A stretch of DNA of 64,000 bases, taken from NCBI GenBank assembly GCA_030625775.1, contig DAOUQC010000008.1, positions 1 to 64,000 on the forward strand. The letters run 5' to 3'. Within the stretch, counting starts at the first letter, position 1, and each line of letters starts with the position of its first letter. This document shows positions 4,270 through 48,457 of the stretch, piece by piece. The translations under genes were made by a program, and so were the position numbers. The notes under the pieces were generated by a model. The model searched no databases and was not told the DNA's origin. It saw only the letters and a program-made list of their open reading frames with translations. Source of the DNA: Verrucomicrobiota bacterium. GTDB lineage: Bacteria > Verrucomicrobiota > Verrucomicrobiia > Verrucomicrobiales > DEV007.

Positions 4270-6045
4270 TCACCGCTCCACATCCTTCACCGCAATTTTC
4301 AAATGCCGCGCTCGCGGAGATTTGCCCCAACCTCCACTGGCATCGATGAAGCCAATCCACAATTCGCCAGGCTGCTTTTCCAGAATAAAGGAATAAGTCG
4401 CGTATCCACGTGCAACAATTGTGGATTCCCCCCATGTCCGCCCCTCGTCACTGGAAAAAGCCAAATGCAATTCACTGCGGCGATCAGGATTCCAAGTGAG
4501 CGCCAAGCGGCCATCTGCCATCCGGATAACATGGCCCGGCGAGTGACTGCTTTTAATCTTACCCGGCTTCGCCTCCGACCAGGTGAGCCCGCCATCGCTT
4601 GAGAATGATTCCCAGAAAAACTTACGGGCCGTGCGAATCAGCATCCACAAACGTTTGTCTTTCAACTCGATCACACAGGGCTCTACTGCACCCGCATGAT
4701 CCCCTGCTCCTCCGATATCAATTTCATTACTTAGCTTCCAGGTCTTGCCGCCATCACTCGATACTGTTGTGCGTGAGACCAGTCTTCCCGGTTTGGCCAC
4801 ATAATGCGAAAAAGGCACCACTAGATTCCCCTTACTTGTCTCGGCCGCACCATTGGTACTGCCCGTGTAACCCTTGAAAATCATCTGCGGCTTGGTCCAG
4901 GTTTTTCCCTCGTCCTGGCTTCTCACTGTCCACAGGTCACTGCGGGTATTTTCGGTAGGGCTCTCTGTTTTCCGATCCCAGGCATGCTGTTGATAACCAA
5001 GAAAAAATACATGCAAGCTGCCATCCCGGGCGTGAAATGCGGTAGGGTGTGCCGAACGCCCCTCTGGCAAGCGAGTGATTTCTTGCTCAGGCAGCCAGGT
5101 CTTGCCTCCATCCCGAGTGATACGAGCGGCAATAAAACACTCACCCGGCTTACCCGCATAACTCGTCGGCGTTGAATAAACCGACATCACCGATTCATCA
5201 GCAAGCTTAAGCAGTGCTGGCCCAAGCACAGCGAGGTGATCCGTATCGTGGGTAATATTGGTCGAACGTGGATGCATCGTCACTCGATCACCACTGCCGT
5301 GCCAAACGGTGAACGGCTTGCGGGCAAAATGTTCATCTCCGGATGACAGTTGTTTGATCAATAAATCTGCGATAATCCGATGCCCGGGGTTTCCCGGGTG
5401 CATGCCATCAGGAGTGAGTGAACCAGCTTTGTGTTTAGGATCCGCATCATGGGCCTCAAAAGCTGCAAAAACATCCACCAACTCCACGCTTTCCTTTTTG
5501 GCAATTTCCCTCACCGTAGCAACGTAATCACGCAGGATCACATTAAAGCCGTCAACATCATCTGGCTGGTAAGGAGGCTTGCCATATAGTTCACGCGTCT
5601 TGTCGGCCCAATGAATCGGATTCGAGGTCATCAATACCACTCTTACTCCCTGCTTTTTCAAGAGCTGGATCATCTCGGTAATATTCTTCCGGTAATCAGC
5701 CAAAGATACCCGTGCTTTGTCAGCAGGTACTTTCCTCCACACATCCACCGCTGCGTCATTGATTCCGAACATGACCACCACCACATCCGGTTTTGCATCG
5801 AGCACGTCTTTTTTTAAACGAGCTGCGCCGTTCTTCGTCGTGTGGCCACCAATGCCTGCATTGATGATTTTAACATCCTTGCCGTCGAAGGAGAGTTCAT
5901 CAGCGAGCAAAGCCGAATACACGGTCGCGCTCCCGCGTTCGGCCGTAACGGAATCCCCGAAGGTAACGATGGTGACAGGCTCGACAGCAAATAACAGGGT
6001 GTTTTGGACACAGAAAAAAACGAGATAAAACAAAAAACGTATCAT
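4270..6045 (-). CDS. secreted SGNH-hydrolase / BNR-repeat sialidase-like fusion
   Basis: About 591 residues from the ATG at 6045, which puts a good signal peptide (MIRFLFYLVFFCVQNTLLFA) at the N-terminus; a GTG 13 codons upstream is less likely. Residues about 20-235 form an SGNH esterase: block I GDSVTAERG, block III VMFGINDA, and block V with DGMHPGNPGH (catalytic Asp and His). The C-terminal half is a BNR/sialidase-like propeller with Asp boxes (SxDxGxTW), for example SQDEGKTW, SSDGGKTW, SSDGGLTW and SSDEGRTW. I see no clear FRIP motif, so sialidase specificity is not proven. A fused deacetylase and exo-glycosidase acting on an acetylated glycan is the natural inference. Confidence 0.78.
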   Translation of the reverse strand: MIRFLFYLVFFCVQNTLLFAVEPVTIVTFGDSVTAERGSATVYSALLADELSFDGKDVKIINAGIGGHTTKNGAARLKKDVLDAKPDVVVVMFGINDAAVDVWRKVPADKARVSLADYRKNITEMIQLLKKQGVRVVLMTSNPIHWADKTRELYGKPPYQPDDVDGFNVILRDYVATVREIAKKESVELVDVFAAFEAHDADPKHKAGSLTPDGMHPGNPGHRIIADLLIKQLSSGDEHFARKPFTVWHGSGDRVTMHPRSTNITHDTDHLAVLGPALLKLADESVMSVYSTPTSYAGKPGECFIAARITRDGGKTWLPEQEITRLPEGRSAHPTAFHARDGSLHVFFLGYQQHAWDRKTESPTENTRSDLWTVRSQDEGKTWTKPQMIFKGYTGSTNGAAETSKGNLVVPFSHYVAKPGRLVSRTTVSSDGGKTWKLSNEIDIGGAGDHAGAVEPCVIELKDKRLWMLIRTARKFFWESFSSDGGLTWSEAKPGKIKSSHSPGHVIRMADGRLALTWNPDRRSELHLAFSSDEGRTWGESTIVARGYATYSFILEKQPGELWIGFIDASGGWGKSPRARHLKIAVKDVER

Positions 6046-6485
6046 GAGGGGCTTGGGCTTGGGCTTGAGAATTTGGTTGCCCACAAGTTGGGAACACCTT
6101 CAAAAAAATATCGCTGTTTGAAATTTCCGCAAGCAATCTCATCTGGTAACTTTTTGATACCAGACAAAATTGATCAGCTGCAAAGACAGAACTACTTCCC
6201 CTGCTCAGGGGCGATGGGCCAACACATACCCAGCCTAGTGCTTCGACCCCCTTAAAATGATGGGGATCGTAGGACAAATTTCCATATTTGTCAGGAGTGG
6301 TTTACGCTGGCCTTAAATGACAGAATCGGAGCCGGAGTGTAACGCAGACAGCCGGAGGCAATTCTGTCCTACGATGAATCCACCATCTTAAGCCTGACAA
6401 GACACTAAGCCAAAGGCCTGGTCACCCCAAAAAACAAATCAGCGCCGTAGGTGCGAGACAAATCCCCGCCTACCGAGATGCCTCG
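6046..6485. other. 440-bp intergenic stretch with nested inverted repeats
   Basis: No supported gene. The right part carries a composite repeat: a perfect 7-6-7 palindrome at 6273-6292 (GACAAAT / TTCCAT / ATTTGTC), GACAGAAT at 6319 paired with ATTCTGTC at 6361-6368, and an outer 11-bp pair ATCGTAGGACA (from 6266) with TGTCCTACGAT (from 6365). A weaker relative, with GTAGG and CCTAC flanks, lies at 6446-6472. It separates two genes on the minus strand. Confidence 0.7.
6266..6375. repeat. composite 110-bp inverted-repeat element, copy B/C
   Basis: Outer arms of 11 bp (ATCGTAGGACA and its reverse complement) enclose a complete 20-bp 7-6-7 palindrome at 6273-6292 and a second arm pair, GACAGAAT/ATTCTGTC. 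The internal segment CAGAATCGGAG is the reverse complement of the core CTCCGATTCTG seen at 39075-39085. It looks like two family members folded into one larger hairpin. No T-tract follows. Confidence 0.7.
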
Positions 6486-12250: not shown

Positions 12251-14359
12251 TCACTTCCGCTTCAACACCACGCGAAAACCGGAATCATAACGGTCGGTTT
12301 TTGACGGCTGCACCGCCAGTCGATAGCCTGTCGCCAGATCATAACCGGACGAACGGCTCCATGAACCGCCACGCAAGATCTTGCGCTCGGTCCCTACCCA
12401 CAAAGAATTGCTCGGTGACTTGGCTTCTCTCGAACGTTTCAAAATTGTCTGGGAATACCAGTCATCACACCATTCCCAAACATTGCCGCGCACATCAAAA
12501 AGCCCGTATTCATTCGCCTGACTGGTACCCACATCAGCGGTGCCTTCCAGCTGTCCCAAACGACTGGTCACCGCATCTTCCAACTGCGCTCCCCCAACAA
12601 AAACACTCCACTCCCGGTCGGTCGGCAGATCATAAACAAAACCCTTTGGCAAAGTCCCCCGGCTGCGCTCATCAATACTTAGCTTTTCGCAAAAGCGCTT
12701 GGCATCATACCAGCTCACACTTTCCACCGGGCGATTCTCCCCCTTGAACGAACTCGGGTTTTTGCTAACTACAGCCTGATAAACTTTCTGTGTCACCTCG
12801 TGCGCAGCCACCCACTCTTTCAATGGTTCCACCCACTGCATTTTTTGACCATAGGAATTAATGAAGTCATGATTCAATACCGGAGTGGGGTCATATTTTA
12901 GACTCACATTGAAATCCAAAGACTGCCCCGGCTCAACTTCACCGGATACCGAAGCGCTGCGGTACTGCCCTTTTCTCAATTCATATTCATAATGCCCCGG
13001 TCTCACTACCCTCTGAGCAAAAGGCGTGCGCCCCATCGGCACCCCATTCAAAATTACGCTTACCCCCGAGGGTTCGCTGCCGATTTTGACACTGCCATAT
13101 TCAAAATCAAAATTAACCTGATCAGCTGCCGAGGCATTGGTCTCCGTATTCACCACCACATCGAAAAGCCCCTCCCTGCGAGCGACAAACTGATACTCCC
13201 CTTCCGGCAGTTCCCACTGCAAAGGTGTTTTTTCTCCACCGCGGCCAATACGTTTGTCATTTAAAAACACCTCGGCCCCCGGAGGATCACTGACAAAATT
13301 CACTAAACTGCGTTTCCAGGCAAACTCGAGGGTGCGTTGCTGGCCTTCCTCGATCTCCACCACCCGGCGAATCTCCGGCCAATCCTGATAACGGATCACC
13401 AGTTCATGTTGGCCCACCGCCAAACCAGGCACACTCAGAGGTGTTGTTCCAGCTAGTCGTCCTCGCTGACCTTCCCCCGCCCCTCCTTCTTTCAACCAAA
13501 CCTCGGCCCCGCTCGGGTCACTGGTCACCTGCAATCCCCCCTGGGCAAACACGTGAGAAACACTGGCCTGCCGGTTATTGGCAATGCGAACTTTTTCAGA
13601 AAATTTCGGCCAGCCTTCCATCTTTAGAGTCACGCTGTAATCGCCCGGAGGAAGTTTTTCCAAAGTCACCGGTGTTTTACCCGCCTGCACCACCAATGCT
13701 TTTTGTTGAGTATTCCCTTTTCCACCCGCTAGCACCAATTCAAACGGCACGCCCTTCGGTTCACTCGACACGGATAAACTGCCCGCCAGCGGACTCAATT
13801 CCAACGGTCCAAGCTCAGCGGTCGCATTTTCCCTGACTGCCACCTTTTGCTCGATTTTTTCGTAACCTTCCTTGCTCACCTCGACCACATAAGAACCAAT
13901 TGGAACCCCCTCAAAAACAGCCGGGCTTTTTTTTGCTCCCTGCTTGCCCAATTTCACACTCGCTCCCTCCGGTTGGGTTCTCACCACCACCCGCCCTTGA
14001 GCCGCCTCAATATGACGATCAATCAGCGGTAAAGTTGTTTTGGCCTCCAACTGCTCCGGCTGTATCGCCAACACCGCTAGATACAAATTGCGCGCTTTAA
14101 CCCAATTACCAGCGGCCATTTCCACCCGGGCTTCTGCCAAACGTATCACCACTTCCGGACTCGATTCCCTCTCCACCCCGGCTACGGCATCCTGCGAAAC
14201 TGCCACTGCCTCACTCGCCTGGCGTCGCTCTCCTACCAGCACACCAATCAAGACCCCCAGCAACAGTGCTGCCACAACCCATCCCCACAAACCGGAAGTC
14301 CCTCTTCCGGAGTCAGTCGACCGCTTCGGTGGCGGCAGGATGATTTTGCTTTCTTCCAT
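12251..14359 (-). CDS. membrane-anchored PEGA-repeat protein with FGE/SUMF1-like domain
   Basis: 702 residues. A cytoplasmic N-terminus of about 25 residues is followed by one transmembrane helix (VVAALLLGVLIGVLVG) and a TPR-like segment (about 70-115). Then come five PEGA repeats, each with the pattern S-x-P-x-G-x-x-V (TQPEGASVKLG, SSEPKGVPFEL, TSDPSGAEVWL, SDPPGAEVFLN, SEPSGVSVILN). From about residue 490 a formylglycine-generating-enzyme-like domain runs to the end (RPVESVSWYDAKRFCEKLS, NVWEWCDDWY, RGGSWSRSSGYDLATGYRL). The paired cysteines of true FGE near RGGS are absent, so a structural or binding role is likelier than sulfatase maturation. It is divergent from the sulfatase that follows. 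Confidence 0.8.
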   Translation of the reverse strand: MEESKIILPPPKRSTDSGRGTSGLWGWVVAALLLGVLIGVLVGERRQASEAVAVSQDAVAGVERESSPEVVIRLAEARVEMAAGNWVKARNLYLAVLAIQPEQLEAKTTLPLIDRHIEAAQGRVVVRTQPEGASVKLGKQGAKKSPAVFEGVPIGSYVVEVSKEGYEKIEQKVAVRENATAELGPLELSPLAGSLSVSSEPKGVPFELVLAGGKGNTQQKALVVQAGKTPVTLEKLPPGDYSVTLKMEGWPKFSEKVRIANNRQASVSHVFAQGGLQVTSDPSGAEVWLKEGGAGEGQRGRLAGTTPLSVPGLAVGQHELVIRYQDWPEIRRVVEIEEGQQRTLEFAWKRSLVNFVSDPPGAEVFLNDKRIGRGGEKTPLQWELPEGEYQFVARREGLFDVVVNTETNASAADQVNFDFEYGSVKIGSEPSGVSVILNGVPMGRTPFAQRVVRPGHYEYELRKGQYRSASVSGEVEPGQSLDFNVSLKYDPTPVLNHDFINSYGQKMQWVEPLKEWVAAHEVTQKVYQAVVSKNPSSFKGENRPVESVSWYDAKRFCEKLSIDERSRGTLPKGFVYDLPTDREWSVFVGGAQLEDAVTSRLGQLEGTADVGTSQANEYGLFDVRGNVWEWCDDWYSQTILKRSREAKSPSNSLWVGTERKILRGGSWSRSSGYDLATGYRLAVQPSKTDRYDSGFRVVLKRK

Positions 14360-14449
14360 TTTTCCAGCGATTCAGCTCGCCTGCACATTTACGTCGTAAA
14401 TAGTTCTTTCCCCGTGCCAATAAATATTCCACAGTTTTCCACCTCTATC

Positions 14450-15934
14450 ATGCAAACCCTATTCCCTGTGAAACCCCTATCAATACACTTCCTACTCTTT
14501 GTTTTCGCCATTTGGCCAGGTGTGACACTTATTTCATCTGCAAATGCCCGTCCTGCTGATGATCGCCCCAACATCATCTACATCATCGCCGATGACCTCG
14601 GTTACAATGAACTCGGTTGTTATGGGCAAAAAACCATCAAAACCCCAAATATCGACCGTATTGCCAGCGATGGCATCAAATTCACCCAGCACTACTCCGG
14701 TCAGGCTGTCTGCGCGCCGGCGCGGTGCTCACTGATGACGGGATACCACATGGGTCATGCTTTTGTGCGTAACAATGGCAATCCCAAAGATCGCATGCCC
14801 GCCTACAAGAAGGACGGCATCTTCCCGGGACAAATTGCTATTCCCGACAGCACAGTCACCATTCCCGAACTGCTGAAAAAGAAAAACTACGCTACCGCCG
14901 CTTACGGCAAGTGGGGACTGGGATACGAAGAATCGACCGGTGATCCGCTCAAGCAAGGCTTCGATGATTTTGGTGGTTTCCTCTGCCAGATCCACGCTCA
15001 CAATCACTACCCGAAGTATCTCTGGAAAAGCGGTAAAAAAATCCCCATGCCCGGCAACGACCGCACCCTGAAAGGTGAAAGTTACTCTCAGGATTATTTT
15101 GTCGACTGGGGCCTGGAGTTCATTCGCAAAAACAAAGAGAAACCCTTTTTCCTCTATCTTCCCTTCGCTGTTCCCCATCTCTCCATCCAAGTGCCCGACA
15201 GCGATGTGGAAAAATACCGCAAGATCATCCAAGAAGAAAAACACCAACACCGTGGATACCTTCCTCACCCTTATCCAAGAGCCGCTTACGCCGCCATGGT
15301 CACCCACATGGACAAAGGCGTCGGACAGATCATGAATCTGGTGAAAGAGCTCGGGCTGGACAACAATACCATCATCCTCTTCTCCAGTGACAACGGCCCT
15401 GCCTACAACCGGCTCGGCGGATCGGACTCAGTTTACTTTGACAGCGCCAACGGCTTTCGTGGTATGAAAGGATCTCTTTACGAAGGAGGTATCCGCATTC
15501 CGCTCATCGCAAGATGGCCGGGAAAAATCAAAGCGGGCAGTGTCACTGACCTTCAATCTGCTTTCTGGGACATCCTGCCGACTTTTTGCGATCTGGCTGA
15601 AGTCAAAACACCGGAAGGTATCGACGGCATTTCACTGGCTCCGACTTTGCTCGGCCAGACCGACAAGCAAAAACACCACGACCACCTCTACTGGGAATTC
15701 GCCGCCTACGGAGGCCAACAGGCAGTTCGCATGGGCAAATGGAAAGCCATTCGCCAGGACATGCTCAAAGGCAAAAATCCCATCATTAAAACCGAGCTTT
15801 ATGATCTGGAAAGCGATCCCGCCGAGTCAGTCGATCTGGCCGACAAATATCCAGTCATACTGAAAAAACTCGAAGAAGTGATGAAAGACGCACGGGTGCC
15901 TTCAAAAACCTACCCCTTCCGAACCCTCGACTGA
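14450..15934 (+). CDS. exported Cys-type sulfatase (arylsulfatase family S1)
   Basis: 494 residues from the ATG at 14450, which gives a clean signal peptide (MQTLFPVKPLSIHFLLFVFA...); a GTG at 14414 would add 12 residues. The alkaline-phosphatase-fold sulfatase starts at DRPNIIYIIADDLGYNELG (metal-binding DD). CAPARCSLMTG supplies the C-x-P-x-R motif whose Cys (about residue 88) is oxidised to formylglycine. Later motifs are the conserved GKWGLGY, ILFSSDNGP (metal Asp/Asn) and EGGIRIP. It hydrolyses sulfate esters, probably of a sulfated polysaccharide, in the periplasm or outside. A 7-bp repeat array and a BNR gene follow on the same strand. Confidence 0.92.
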   Translation: MQTLFPVKPLSIHFLLFVFAIWPGVTLISSANARPADDRPNIIYIIADDLGYNELGCYGQKTIKTPNIDRIASDGIKFTQHYSGQAVCAPARCSLMTGYHMGHAFVRNNGNPKDRMPAYKKDGIFPGQIAIPDSTVTIPELLKKKNYATAAYGKWGLGYEESTGDPLKQGFDDFGGFLCQIHAHNHYPKYLWKSGKKIPMPGNDRTLKGESYSQDYFVDWGLEFIRKNKEKPFFLYLPFAVPHLSIQVPDSDVEKYRKIIQEEKHQHRGYLPHPYPRAAYAAMVTHMDKGVGQIMNLVKELGLDNNTIILFSSDNGPAYNRLGGSDSVYFDSANGFRGMKGSLYEGGIRIPLIARWPGKIKAGSVTDLQSAFWDILPTFCDLAEVKTPEGIDGISLAPTLLGQTDKQKHHDHLYWEFAAYGGQQAVRMGKWKAIRQDMLKGKNPIIKTELYDLESDPAESVDLADKYPVILKKLEEVMKDARVPSKTYPFRTLD

Positions 15935-15940
15935 CCTCAT

Positions 15941-16031
15941 CACTTTTCACTTTTCACTTTTCACTTTTCACTTTTCACTCATCACTCATCACTCATCACT
16001 CATCACTCATCACTCATCACTCATCACTCAT
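15941..16031. repeat. heptamer tandem array abutting a start codon
   Basis: Thirteen perfect 7-bp units without interruption: five CACTTTT (15941-15975) followed by eight CACTCAT (15976-16031). The last unit supplies the A and T of the ATG at 16030-16032, so the array occupies the whole ribosome-binding region of the next gene. No Shine-Dalgarno sequence is present. Confidence 0.95.
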
Positions 16032-17253
16032 GAAACGCCTCCACCTTATTTGCACCGCCGCCCTCCTTTCCCTCTCCCCGCTCCTTCAAGCGACGGAAAT
16101 CCCCTTCATTGATCTTGCCGACGACCACTATCGCCAGATTCTCGTTGATCATGAAGCCGGCCAGTATCTCGGCCATCCCACCATCTGCCTACTCGATGAC
16201 GGCAAGACCATTCTCACCGTTTATCCCAAAGGCCACGGCAAAGGCGGCATTGTTTACAAGCGCTCAGCGGACGGTGGCCTCACCTGGTCTGATCGCCTAC
16301 CAACCCCCAAATCCTGGCTGACCTCGAGGGAAGTTCCCACCCTCCACCGGGTCACTGATGCCTCCGGCAAAAAACGCATCATCATGTTTTCCGGACTCTA
16401 TCCGATTCGCATGTCAGTCACCGAAGACGACGGCGCCAGCTGGTCAGAGCTGGAACCTATCGGTGACTTCGGCGGCATCGTCGCAATGGGATGTTACTTC
16501 CCTGTCAAAACCACACCCGGCAACTACATCTGCCTGTTCCATGACGACGGACGTTTCATCCGTAAGGACAGCAAAAAAGAAGATCCAACCGTCATGACCC
16601 TCTTCAAAACCCTGTCCACCGACGGCGGGCTCACCTGGGGACAACCTGAGAAAATTTTTGGTGCTGCCGACATCCATTTATGCGAACCCGGAGTCATTCG
16701 ATCACCAGACGGCAAAACCCTGGCTGTGCTGCTACGTGAAAATCGCCGCAAGAAAAACTCACACATCATCTTCAGTCACGACGAAGGCCTTACCTGGACC
16801 ACACCGAAGGAACTGCCCATCACTCTCACCGGTGATCGCCATACTGGAGCTTACGGTCCCGACGGTCGCCTGTTCATCTCATTCCGTGGAGTCACCCCTA
16901 CTCAGAAATTCGCCTTCAAAGACAGCAGTAAGGATACGGGGAAAATGCCTACCAACGGAGACTGGGCCGGTTGGGTCGGCAGCTGGGATGATCTAGTCAA
17001 TGGCACACCCGGCCAATACGTTGTCCGCCTGATGGATAACCAAAAGGGCTACGACACCACCTACCCCGGTGTGGAAGTCCTGCCCGACGGCACCTTCGTC
17101 CTCGTCACCTACGGTCACTGGACCAAAAATGAAGACCCCTACATCATGAGCGTTCGTTTCAAACTCGAAGAACTCGATCAAAAAGCAAAACTAGCTGAAA
17201 AAATCCAACTGAGTCCCGACTTCAAACAACTGGCTCAAACACCAAAAAAATAA
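16030..17253 (+). CDS. exported BNR-repeat (sialidase-like) glycosidase
   Basis: 407 residues with signal peptide MKRLHLICTAALLSLSPLLQA. The mature protein is a six-bladed sialidase-type propeller: SADGGLTWSD, TEDDGASWSE, STDGGLTWGQ and SHDEGLTWTT are Asp boxes, and GHPTICLLDDGKTILTVYPKGHGKG near the N-terminus is typical of the exo-alpha-sialidase-like family. Substrate is uncertain, since many members with this layout act on other sugars. Its start codon lies inside the heptamer array at 15941-16031, an unusual 5' context. It sits 95 bp downstream of the sulfatase on the same strand, which suggests joint action on a sulfated glycan. Confidence 0.8.
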   Translation: MKRLHLICTAALLSLSPLLQATEIPFIDLADDHYRQILVDHEAGQYLGHPTICLLDDGKTILTVYPKGHGKGGIVYKRSADGGLTWSDRLPTPKSWLTSREVPTLHRVTDASGKKRIIMFSGLYPIRMSVTEDDGASWSELEPIGDFGGIVAMGCYFPVKTTPGNYICLFHDDGRFIRKDSKKEDPTVMTLFKTLSTDGGLTWGQPEKIFGAADIHLCEPGVIRSPDGKTLAVLLRENRRKKNSHIIFSHDEGLTWTTPKELPITLTGDRHTGAYGPDGRLFISFRGVTPTQKFAFKDSSKDTGKMPTNGDWAGWVGSWDDLVNGTPGQYVVRLMDNQKGYDTTYPGVEVLPDGTFVLVTYGHWTKNEDPYIMSVRFKLEELDQKAKLAEKIQLSPDFKQLAQTPKK

Positions 17254-17302
17254 CTCCTCTTCTCTTCTTCATGAATTTCATGTATTGCCTTCGGACAGTA
17301 AG

Positions 17303-17325
17303 CTCCGGCTGTCTCGGCTCATGGT
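17303..17325. repeat. 23-bp intergenic direct repeat, copy 1
   Basis: CTCCGGCTGTCTCGGC followed by TCATGGT. An identical 23-bp copy occurs at 20644-20666. Its central part also occurs in reverse orientation as GAGCCGAGACAGC at 27396-27408. This copy lies between convergent genes. Confidence 0.75.
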
Positions 17326-17340
17326 GAAAAAACGACTACC

Positions 17341-18120
17341 CTAACCACCATCAAAACCCCTCACCTGATCGATCACAAAATCCACCATCACCGGATCACC
17401 GCCCACTGGTTGCGCGCAGTAAACTTTGCGTAATCGAATTTCATAGGGCTGCTCAACAGCCCCCTTTTTCACTCCCAGTATTTTCGGTAAGTCCCGACTG
17501 AAGTGCAGTCCCTCGGCAATGAAATAGGGCAGCAATACCACATTCTGGAAATTGCTCAGCGCGCACCAATCTGACAAGTGCGGAGCTTCATCAAGATAGA
17601 CCCCCAGAACCTCACCAAAACCATCTCCGCGGGCACAAATTTTCTCCACCTGTTGCTTCACCGCACCTGCGGAATCCTTGTTCCGCCCCGTGCCGTGTCC
17701 GACTATCAACAAACTCATCTCCGAACGCTCCACGCCAGGGGCGATTTCAGCGGCTCGCTTTAACAACAAATCCGTCATCCCCGGATGACTTCCCACCGGA
17801 TCGCAGTAGTGAATGCAAAAGCCATCCCGTTCCGTCACCCTCCCCATCAGTCCCAATTCACGGGGAATCACCTCCTTGGTGAAGTAGCCTTCGCTGATAA
17901 AATGTGGCACCACATAAATGTTGGAACAGCCTACATCCTGAAAGGCATTACGATAATGGGGCTCTTCTTTCCAAAAAACAGCATGAACCTCGGCAAACAG
18001 CGCCTTCTCCCTGAGCTCCTCGGCCAGAGCCCGGGTAGCTTGACTGGATTGACTGTTTTCAGTCGACCCATGACCAGGAATGAGCACAGCAATCTCTCTC
18101 AGTGATATTTCCTTATCCAT
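17341..18120 (-). CDS. cbiX: CbiX/SirB-like chelatase, two-domain
   Basis: 259 residues from the ATG at 18120 (a TTG three codons upstream is less likely). Two tandem CbiX units are visible. The first has IPGHGSTENSQSSQATRALAEEL with the metal-site His and VVPHFISEGYFTKEVIPREL. The second has VGHGTGRNKDSAG and LLPYFIAEGLHFSRDLPKIL. This is the arrangement of long CbiX/SirB-type class II chelatases, which insert cobalt, nickel or ferrous iron into sirohydrochlorin in the cytoplasm. No cobalamin or sirohaem gene is nearby, so the metal and pathway are open. Confidence 0.75.
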   Translation of the reverse strand: MDKEISLREIAVLIPGHGSTENSQSSQATRALAEELREKALFAEVHAVFWKEEPHYRNAFQDVGCSNIYVVPHFISEGYFTKEVIPRELGLMGRVTERDGFCIHYCDPVGSHPGMTDLLLKRAAEIAPGVERSEMSLLIVGHGTGRNKDSAGAVKQQVEKICARGDGFGEVLGVYLDEAPHLSDWCALSNFQNVVLLPYFIAEGLHFSRDLPKILGVKKGAVEQPYEIRLRKVYCAQPVGGDPVMVDFVIDQVRGFDGG

Positions 18121-22022: not shown

Positions 22023-22026
22023 AACT

Positions 22027-22047
22027 CCTAATTCCTAATTCCTAATT
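22027..22047. repeat. three CCTAATT heptamers inside the 3' end of lpxB
   Basis: Three perfect tandem units of CCTAATT. The bottom strand of this array encodes the last residues and stop of LpxB (ELGIRN, then TAG), so the array is partly coding. The same heptamer is tandem at 48422-48456. Confidence 0.9.
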
Positions 22048-23161
22048 CCCCCCGCACCGCTTGCGCCGCTTGGGCATAAGCCCCTCCCTCCCCCAGACTC
22101 CCAACCACTTCGGCCAGCTCGCTTTTCAGCGCATTCCGCTTTTCGACATCCTGCAGCAAAGCTTCTAATTCAGCAAAAATACAATCGGCGCCAGACTCTG
22201 ATTGAAGCAATTCCTTGACCACTTCTTTGTCGGCCAGAACATTCACGATCCCCAGATAGTCTATCCTCATCAAAAGTTTGGCTGCCAGATAAGTTGGCCA
22301 CGCGACCCGGTAGACCAAGCAATAAGGCAAGCCAAACACCGCCGCCTCCAGGGTTGCCGTGCCCGAGGTCACCACCCCCACCACTGCCTGCTGCATCAAC
22401 TCATGGGCATTGCCCAAACCTATAGTCAAATCCTTCAATCCACCTGCATCCGCTATCTCACGCATGCGTGCCGCCAGTTTGTCCGATGGAGCTGCGGTCG
22501 CAAAACTCAACTCGCTGTCTCGCTCCGACAAGCGCCGGGCCGCTTCGACCATCGCTGGAAAAAGCTTTTCAATTTCACGTTCACGACTGCCCGGCAACAA
22601 AGCCAGCAAATGTTCATCCCGTAACTCTTCACCGCTCCCTGACTTGAGTTTATCTACCAGCGGATGCCCTGAAAAAATAGTTTTCAGGCCTGAATTTTCA
22701 TAAAGTTTTTTCTCGAAAGGAAAAATACAAATCATCAAATCCAGTATCTCCGCCATGCGGGAAACCCTGCCTTTTTTCCAAGCCCACACCTGGGGGCTGA
22801 TGTAATAAATCAGCGCCCCCTCATAACCACCCTTCCTCAGCCGGTCAGCCAAACGAAGATTAAAGCCCGGATAATCAATCAATATCACTGCATCCGGTTG
22901 AATTTGTGCAATCCTCTCAAGCGTCTCTTCCATCTTGTGCCGGAAATAGCCGTATTTCTGCAACACCTCCCACAAACCGAGAACCGCAGCTTGCTCCAAC
23001 CAGTTTTCGATAGCACTCGAAAGAGCCGCCATCCCAGGGCCTCCCAGTCCTGAAATTTCAATCTTCTCCCCAGTCTTTGTGGATTTTGCAAGAACAGACA
23101 TCAAACCCGCACCATGCGTATCTCCGCTGTGCTCGCCCGCTACAATGAACAGTTTCTTCAT
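22028..23161 (-). CDS. lpxB: lipid-A-disaccharide synthase
   Basis: 377 residues from the ATG at 23161. Family motifs (GT19) are all present: FIVAGEHSGDTHGAGL at the N-terminus, YYISPQVWAWKKGRVSRM, FSGHPLVDKL, LLPGSREREIEKLFP, and VTSGTATLEAAVFGLPYCLVYR. The enzyme joins UDP-2,3-diacylglucosamine and lipid X into the lipid A disaccharide at the inner face of the inner membrane. Its ATG overlaps the TGA of the upstream Gfo/Idh gene by 4 bp (ATGA, 23158-23161), which implies translational coupling. The final residues are encoded by the CCTAATT tandem repeat. Confidence 0.95.
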   Translation of the reverse strand: MKKLFIVAGEHSGDTHGAGLMSVLAKSTKTGEKIEISGLGGPGMAALSSAIENWLEQAAVLGLWEVLQKYGYFRHKMEETLERIAQIQPDAVILIDYPGFNLRLADRLRKGGYEGALIYYISPQVWAWKKGRVSRMAEILDLMICIFPFEKKLYENSGLKTIFSGHPLVDKLKSGSGEELRDEHLLALLPGSREREIEKLFPAMVEAARRLSERDSELSFATAAPSDKLAARMREIADAGGLKDLTIGLGNAHELMQQAVVGVVTSGTATLEAAVFGLPYCLVYRVAWPTYLAAKLLMRIDYLGIVNVLADKEVVKELLQSESGADCIFAELEALLQDVEKRNALKSELAEVVGSLGEGGAYAQAAQAVRGELGIRN

Positions 23162-38945: not shown

Positions 38946-39006
38946 CCCAGGGGTAATAAAACCACCCACTCCGGAGCTTGAGTTTTGAACACGTGAGCTC
39001 ATCGAG

Positions 39007-39087
39007 GAACAAAACGTGGAACAAAACGTGGAACAAAACGTGGAACAAAACGTGGAACAAAACGTGGAACAGAACTCCGATTCTGTT
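39007..39087. repeat. 12-bp tandem array leading into 7-6-7 palindrome, copy E
   Basis: Five perfect copies of GAACAAAACGTG (39007-39066) run directly into GAACAG and the perfect palindrome AACAGAA-CTCCGA-TTCTGTT (39068-39087). The 12-mer equals the left flank and arm of the palindrome family (GTGG-RACARAAC), so the array seems to be serial duplication of one arm. A partial inverted copy, GAATCGGAGTGT, follows at 39126-39137. Confidence 0.9.
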
Positions 39088-39218: not shown

Positions 39219-40808
39219 ATGTCCCTAAACGGCAATGATCTCATCGAAGCTGGATGGCAGCCTTCCTCCCTATTCCCAGAAATGCTGGCAGCGGCGCGAA
39301 CCCTCGAAGATCGCGGTATCAAGGATCCCACTTACATCCTCAAACTGCTGGCTCGCGACTTTCCCAAACCCCCTCCCAAATTAAGCCGTCGGGACGAAGC
39401 TTTGCCTCTCGCCGAAGCCATCAGTGCCACTAGTGAGGCAGACGAAAAAAACATCGTCAATGTTCGGCGCTTGATGAATCAACTGCTGCGTATCCCCATC
39501 GTCGAATCCGGAGCCATCATGCCCGATGCCTGTCCCGCCGGCATGGCCGAGGCAACCATTCCTGTTGGGGGTGCGATCTCCGTGCGCAACGCCATTCTAC
39601 CTGCCGCCCACAGTGCGGATATTTGCTGCTCCATGCATGCGACCTTTTTCCACTGCAAAAAAGACACCGGTGAAATGCTCGACCACCTCATCGACTCCAC
39701 CCGCTTTGGTTTCGGCGGACGCAAGGCCGGAGACATCGTGCACCACCCCGTGCTCGACGAGCCGGTATGGGACAACATCTTCCTCAAAGGTCTGGAAGGG
39801 CATGCCGCCATGCACATGGCGGACCAGGGGGACGGCAATCACTTTGCCTATATCGGAAAAGTCTCATGGAGCGACGAAGCTCTCGAAGCCCTGCGTCAAA
39901 ACGGTCACGCAGAAATCGCCCAGGCCTTCACCGCAGACAAATCATCCATCAACAAATTTTACGCTCTGGTCACTCATCACGGATCACGTGGTCTCGGTGC
40001 CCATGTTTACAAACGCGGACACAAAGCGGCGATCAAGGAAACCTCCCGCATTGCCGAAGGCATCCCCAAGGCCGCCGCCTGGCTAGACACTCGAACGGAT
40101 ATCGGCAGCGAATATTGGGACGCCTTGCAATACGTCTCGCGCTGGACCAAGGCTAACCATGAATCTATCCACGAACGCTTCCTCAACCGCGTCGAAGCCA
40201 AAACCCTGACGGCTTTTGGCAATGAGCACAACTTCGTTTGGAAACGCGGCGAGAATACCTTCCTGCACGGCAAAGGTGCAACCCCGGCCTGGAAAGACGA
40301 AAAAACCGGCCACCCCCTGCTCGGGCTTATTCCACTCAATATGTCCGAGCCAATCCTCATCACTCTGGGATGCGATAACAGCGACTACCTGTCCTTTGCT
40401 CCCCACGGAGCCGGGCGCAATCAAAGTCGTACGGCCACACTCAAGGATTTCCGCAAAAACAATGGCGATCTTGATCCGAAAAAGGTAGATCGAGTCATTG
40501 CCAAAGCCACCGAGGGACTCGACATCCGCTGGTTTTACGGCAAAGCCGACCTCACCGAAAGCCCGGTCGGCTACAAATCCGCTGCTCAGGTTCGTGAGCA
40601 AATCGAATATTTTGGCCTAGCGGACATCATCGCCCAAATCGAACCCCTCGGCTGCATCATGGCCGGCGACTCAGGCCCCCGGCCGTGGGAGCGCAAACGC
40701 GAAGATTACCTCAGCCCCAAGCAAAAACGCCAGATCCAGCATCGCTCCACCCGGCGCAAAAACCGGCAGACCCTGTCCCATTGGGATGGGGATGGGGAAG
40801 AGGACTGA
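39219..40808 (+). CDS. rtcB: RtcB-family RNA ligase, long variant
   Basis: 529 residues, longer than E. coli RtcB (about 408). The manganese and GTP site residues are conserved: ADICCSMHATF (C137 for the canonical DIGCG), QGDGNHF (H208), VTHHGSRGLG (H254), NEHNFVW (H337) and SFAPHGAGR, where H396 matches the histidine that accepts GMP. HGKGATPA takes the place of HRKGAT. The C-terminal 60 residues are basic (SPKQKRQIQHRSTRRKNRQT). The family joins 2',3'-cyclic phosphate or 3'-phosphate RNA ends to 5'-OH ends. No archease or RtcA/RtcR gene is nearby. Confidence 0.88.
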   Translation: MSLNGNDLIEAGWQPSSLFPEMLAAARTLEDRGIKDPTYILKLLARDFPKPPPKLSRRDEALPLAEAISATSEADEKNIVNVRRLMNQLLRIPIVESGAIMPDACPAGMAEATIPVGGAISVRNAILPAAHSADICCSMHATFFHCKKDTGEMLDHLIDSTRFGFGGRKAGDIVHHPVLDEPVWDNIFLKGLEGHAAMHMADQGDGNHFAYIGKVSWSDEALEALRQNGHAEIAQAFTADKSSINKFYALVTHHGSRGLGAHVYKRGHKAAIKETSRIAEGIPKAAAWLDTRTDIGSEYWDALQYVSRWTKANHESIHERFLNRVEAKTLTAFGNEHNFVWKRGENTFLHGKGATPAWKDEKTGHPLLGLIPLNMSEPILITLGCDNSDYLSFAPHGAGRNQSRTATLKDFRKNNGDLDPKKVDRVIAKATEGLDIRWFYGKADLTESPVGYKSAAQVREQIEYFGLADIIAQIEPLGCIMAGDSGPRPWERKREDYLSPKQKRQIQHRSTRRKNRQTLSHWDGDGEED

Positions 40809-48421: not shown

Positions 48422-48456
48422 CCTAATTCTTAATTCCTAATTCCTAATTCCTAATT
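48422..48456. repeat. five-unit CCTAATT-type heptamer array
   Basis: Units CCTAATT, CTTAATT, CCTAATT, CCTAATT, CCTAATT in tandem between the uxaC start and the exchanger gene stop at 48458. The same heptamer is tandem at 22027-22047. Confidence 0.9.
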
Positions 48457-48457
48457 C

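Follow-up and report, generated by a model that had tools for sequence, protein, structure and literature searches.

A G-free heptanucleotide array running into the start codon of a BNR_2 gene in a Verrucomicrobiota bacterium, probably a tolerated spacer

Tandem repeats of seven nucleotides located outside genes have been described in several bacterial groups, and the accounts compared here come from parts of three reports. In Beggiatoaceae, cyanobacteria and Bacteroidetes, TAACTGA repeats form arrays just before start codons, over the ribosome-binding region; Shine-Dalgarno motifs are rare there, while the host has them before about 25% of its genes, 7-nt indels occur between close strains, and it is argued that arrays at start codons may be binding sites of a translational regulator (MacGregor 2015, PMC4679880). 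The GGGAATC and GGGGA(C/T)T repeats of Xanthomonas and Nostoc are dispersed, intergenic and mostly located between aligned genes, with functionally mixed neighbours, a variable unit number that prefers four units, and, where the G-rich strand is sense, a position shortly downstream of a stop codon (Rehm et al. 2015, PMC4692102). In Haemophilus influenzae, a heptamer array whose unit number can vary lies in the promoter region of hmw1A, a gene for an exported protein, and its length was shown to set the transcript level, with more 7-bp repeats giving less transcript (PMC8262952).

Here we describe a heptamer array of a Verrucomicrobiota bacterium (GenBank assembly GCA_030625775.1), found in a window of 64,000 nucleotides, that is, the whole stretch of DNA that was analysed (positions 1 to 64,000 of contig DAOUQC010000008.1). 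The array and the two genes that flank it are the following:

14450 to 15934, plus strand: upstream sulfatase gene (Pfam Sulfatase, E 2.6e-58; SGSH_C, E 4.3e-18), with its stop codon TGA at 15932-15934
15936 to 15940, plus strand: incomplete heptamer CTCAT with which the array opens, from the TRF start and the sequence
15941 to 15975, plus strand: five perfect CACTTTT units, from the sequence
15976 to 16031, plus strand: eight perfect CACTCAT units, from the sequence, the final one contributing the first two bases (AT) of the start codon
16030 to 17253, plus strand: BNR_2 domain gene of 407 aa (Pfam BNR_2, E 4.9e-13)

The thirteen perfect heptamers at 15941-16031, which a first-pass annotation had described as including the AT of the ATG, are reproduced in both units and coordinates. 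TRF reports the array at 15936-16031 (period 7, 13.7 copies, 95% matches, score 122), with the earlier start explained by the partial unit that precedes the first full heptamer. The sulfatase stop and the BNR_2 ATG (16030-16032) are separated by a gap of 95 bp, of which the array occupies 15936-16029. Direct reading shows that the sense strand of the array contains no G, no ATG, GTG or TTG, and no stop codon in any frame. Because G is absent, no Shine-Dalgarno motif lies inside the array, and the earlier description of a ribosome-binding region that is made of repeat and lacks such a motif is upheld. The predicted fold of the leader is weak (-0.8 kcal/mol), with an unpaired centroid. The CACTTTT and CACTCAT units form two homogeneous blocks, the pattern expected from tandem duplication.

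The position of the array just before a start codon resembles that of the TAACTGA arrays, but its units are CACTTTT and CACTCAT; the TAACTGA unit, as read from its sequence, contains stop codons, whereas the sense strand here has neither stop nor start. With the repeats of Xanthomonas and Nostoc it shares the 7-nt unit and the location between aligned genes, but it comprises 13 units and runs into the start codon. On one of its strands the CACT-type unit carries one or two G, on the opposite strand it carries none, and therefore no G-quadruplex is expected, unlike for those repeats.

The ATG at 16030 is the sole ATG, GTG or TTG in frame after the preceding stop, in a stop-to-stop frame of 482 codons, and it is matched by the start (ATGAAA) of the homologue in the same-genus genome G002, which is 87% identical over residues 3-407. 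The possibility of an internal true start, raised in the first-pass annotation, is thereby ruled out, and the annotated ATG is upheld. A translational frameshift switch acting through an upstream in-frame start is also ruled out, since the 75 open codons upstream contain no ATG, GTG or TTG. The N-terminus of the protein is signal-peptide-like by eye. The earlier labels, BNR glycosidase and surface-glycan enzyme, are borne out as far as the BNR_2 domain goes, but "glycosidase" is looser than the evidence, and both enzyme activity and surface location are putative. The sulfatase gene probably starts at ATG 14450, and its longest ORF in the ORF list begins at GTG 14414. Divergent from it, a gene on the minus strand (12251-14359) encodes a protein that matches the PEGA domain five times and carries an FGE-sulfatase (formylglycine-enzyme-like) domain at its C-terminus. 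The sulfatase query gives 198 matches across the genome (G000), a count which suggests that sulfated substrates are used extensively.

A gene was scored as having a Shine-Dalgarno motif when any four adjacent bases of AGGAGGT ended 4-13 nt upstream of its start codon, with a shifted region as the control. Gene starts were taken from a simple caller of our own, which recovered 45 of 47 annotated genes of E. coli, 35 of them with the exact start. The motif precedes 58/563 ATG genes of the genome versus 55/563 at the shifted position. For 50 kb of E. coli K-12, the counts with this caller are 24/38 versus 1/38, and those for annotated E. coli starts are 34/47 versus 1/47. The genome thus shows no excess over the shifted control, which sets it apart from the TAACTGA host. 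The 3' end of its 16S rRNA is GGATCACCTCCTTT, in which CCUCC is kept. A published report (PMC10783764) describes CCUCC as retained but hardly used in Bacteroidota and in certain members of the Verrucomicrobia, Akkermansia for example, and it notes sparse use of the motif in Flavobacterium johnsoniae. The present genome fits the organisms that hardly use the Shine-Dalgarno motif yet keep the anti-Shine-Dalgarno sequence. Because a Shine-Dalgarno signal is lacking genome-wide, the missing motif at the BNR_2 gene is nothing special.

The frequency of such arrays was estimated by a period scan of 1,216,639 bases of the 4.88-Mb genome (62 stretches, the window included), in which a period-7 tract was defined by a score of 12 or more and six Markov-3 draws of the sample served as the control. 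The Markov-3 sequences took the place of a pattern read backwards, which is no control here, as reversal of the unit yields another heptamer of the CACT type. The sample (1.217 Mb) contains 13 period-7 tracts, against 0-5 at the other periods that are not multiples of 3; the Markov-3 draws give 1, 1, 0, 0, 0 and 0 tracts of score at least 12, with a maximum score of 14 across five of the draws. The BNR array, with a score of 77, is far beyond chance, and none of the other 12 sampled tracts is as long. By midpoint, 10 of the tracts are intergenic, 2 overlap the 3' end of a gene and 1 is inside a gene. Recurrent units in the genome include AGATAGG, TTAGGAA and AAAAGTG/CACTTTT. Two further heptamer arrays lie in the window itself:

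22026 to 22049, no strand assigned: second array of the window, TCCTAAT, from the period scan, between two convergent genes
48424 to 48457, minus strand: third array of the window, with the unit GGAATTA when read on the coding strand, in the gap that separates a stop codon from uxaC

The TCCTAAT array contains and supplies the stop codon of one of its convergent genes (22028-23161, minus strand). The top-scoring tandem repeat of the window by TRF has another period: 5.8 copies of the 12-mer GGAACAAAACGT at 39006-39075 (98% matches, score 133), in the gap before a gene at 39219.

Genes that adjoin heptamer arrays in the genome include uxaC, a nucleoside symporter gene, and genes for a PfkB kinase, a Methyltransf_4 protein, PPK2 and a DUF3604 protein. 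The array neighbours are functionally mixed, housekeeping genes included, and form no surface-gene set. The DUF3604 gene (L111) provides a second case in the genome of a CACT-type array that fills the gap from stop to start, and the same is seen at an amidase gene of another genome (G076, L072); CACT-type units also precede gene starts in other genomes. Of 141 genomes of the order, 10 contain three units of CACTYWT by pattern, and a search for five units in a species-level genome collection gave at least 118 stretches, from many phyla. With perfect or near-perfect 7-nt tandem units and many arrays mainly outside genes, the BNR array belongs with the dispersed intergenic heptanucleotide repeats of the kind described by Rehm et al. 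and MacGregor, a widespread kind. A literature search for intergenic heptanucleotide tandem repeats in Verrucomicrobia found no paper.

The array was sought at homologous loci. Of 30 loci fetched, one was the window, and 16 of the others were inspected; homologues with a weaker or incomplete match (L021-L029 and L031-L034) were left out. It is present at 0/16 of these BNR genes, which rules it out as a conserved regulatory element of them. In G002 (L112, C25, about 5800-6050), the alignment of the upstream flank breaks off at window position 14582 and resumes at 16096; this locus lacks the body of the sulfatase gene, and the N-terminal codons of the sulfatase are fused in frame directly before the BNR start. 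The closest match to the upstream sulfatase anywhere in G002 has 44% identity, and the stop-to-start array before the DUF3604 gene is also absent from G002. Before uxaC, the number of GGAATTA units is about 1.5 in G002, 2-3 in G001 and about 5 in the genome studied here, which represent three species of the genus. Different heptamers can also occupy a homologous gap: before the start of a VWA gene, G013 (L352) carries degenerate CACTTTT-like units where L056 carries an AGATAGG array. The length differences at uxaC and the absences in relatives indicate that arrays of this class are gained, lost and altered in length from one species to another. The "length-variable" part of the first-pass reading therefore stands for the class, while at the BNR locus the array is absent from the relatives inspected; length change there is plausible, based on the uxaC array.

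We next compared the two orientations of heptamer arrays relative to stop and start codons. The order-wide set comprises 97 clusters (61 in tandem gaps, 24 inside called genes, 9 convergent and 3 divergent) and was partly chosen by pattern, so that it is no random sample. Within its tandem gaps, the array lies at most 25 nt from the upstream stop in 17/20 cases with the G-bearing strand as sense versus 6/41 in the other orientation (p = 1.4e-7). The cross-phylum set, from the 118 stretches listed, comprises 99 arrays with both flanks, after 30 of 129 were dropped for a missing flank or a position inside an ORF. Among the matches listed for it, proximity to the stop is seen in 48/71 versus 3/52 (p = 7e-13), the stop codon lies inside the array in 26/71 versus 0/52, and stricter ORF limits give 36/59 versus 1/44 and 30/55 versus 1/39. 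Arrays with the G-bearing sense strand thus hug stop codons, often supplying the TGA, and Rehm et al. describe a similar position rule for G-rich heptamers in the part of their report used here (PMC4692102). Proximity to the start does not differ significantly between orientations, either in the tandem gaps of the order-wide set (G-free 16/41 versus G-bearing 6/20, p = 0.58) or among the cross-phylum matches listed (8/28 versus 10/47, p = 0.58), and a preference of the G-free orientation for starts is therefore a part of the model without statistical support. The BNR array has the opposite, G-free orientation and is among the minority that reach a start.

Taken as a whole, the BNR array is probably a lineage-specific heptanucleotide array that grew by slippage and is tolerated as a passive, G-free leader between two genes that are probably co-transcribed. 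Replication slippage would have expanded it in the short gap between the co-directional sulfatase and BNR_2 genes, which is a probable operon gap, and the array would then serve as an unstructured mRNA leader. It could be tolerated against the start codon given the little Shine-Dalgarno pairing in this organism and a sense strand that offers no start, stop or folding. The CACTCAT unit ends in CAT and a G follows the array, so that an identical ATG, in an identical context, is restored when such units are dropped or added. Only the spacing to the sulfatase stop, long as it is at 95 nt, would be altered, in steps of 7 nt, with the bases before the ATG unchanged, and little or no effect on expression would be expected. 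The lack of Shine-Dalgarno use, the many arrays, their mixed neighbours and the absence at the homologues inspected together argue for a tolerated spacer. That the longest of the 13 sampled tracts lies at a start codon leaves room for selection, and a regulatory role like that proposed for TAACTGA (PMC4679880) or shown for hmw1A (PMC8262952) is conceivable but unlikely.

A leader that is rich in C, U and A and repeated could recruit ribosomal protein S1, a cold-shock protein or a dedicated repressor and so act as a post-transcriptional control element common to several genes. Such a role was proposed for the TAACTGA heptamers just before starts in Beggiatoaceae (in part of PMC4679880), and CACT-type units do precede the DUF3604 gene and genes in other genomes. 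However, the array is missing from the homologous genes inspected, the G-free orientation is not enriched before starts, and the genes downstream of the arrays are unrelated, and we regard a binding platform as unlikely.

The first-pass annotation had instead proposed a candidate length-variable expression switch that works through the distance to an upstream promoter. Put as a contingency locus, this reading has unit number change how far away a promoter or processing site lies, and in this way set BNR output, as the heptamers of hmw1A do. The hmw1A precedent (in part of PMC8262952), where a heptamer array also lies upstream of an exported-protein gene, the length and perfection of the BNR array, and the length variation of the class between species speak in its favour. 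The hmw1A array, however, is in a promoter region, whereas the BNR array fills an intercistronic gap. Because this gap is almost wholly array, a promoter would need to sit either in the repeat or within the sulfatase gene, where the closest DNA outside the repeat lies; a search limited to the sigma-70 type found no such site in 14200-17400. With the genome-wide lack of Shine-Dalgarno use, no room for a promoter outside the repeat, a start context that is constant whatever the unit number, 0/16 homologues carrying the array, and heptamers that adjoin housekeeping genes as well, the switch is unsupported and we judge it quite improbable. It is more doubtful still that the array matters mainly as a deletion or rearrangement site of the sulfatase-BNR pair: the fusion in G002 falls exactly at the array position of the present genome, but it is a single case in a draft of 420 contigs, and no array is left at the junction, so that a link between deletion and array cannot be shown.

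Returning to the spacer reading, its orientation side can be put in a more general, tentative form, which we would rate as a conjecture with a minority chance of being right. Heptamer arrays may persist at gene ends according to the start and stop codons on their sense strand: stop-bearing arrays of the GTGA type would grow at stop codons and take them over, and arrays free of stops and starts would fill gaps up to start codons, most freely where the Shine-Dalgarno motif is not used. The CACT-type unit, for which no quadruplex is expected and which carries TGA on its G-bearing strand, fits this simple stop-codon explanation. If true, the rule would explain the polarity of other reported heptamers without G-quadruplexes. 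Heptamer arrays at start codons are easily mistaken for phase-variation switches, and stop-codon polarity offers a simple, testable alternative to structure-based accounts of where heptamer repeats are located.
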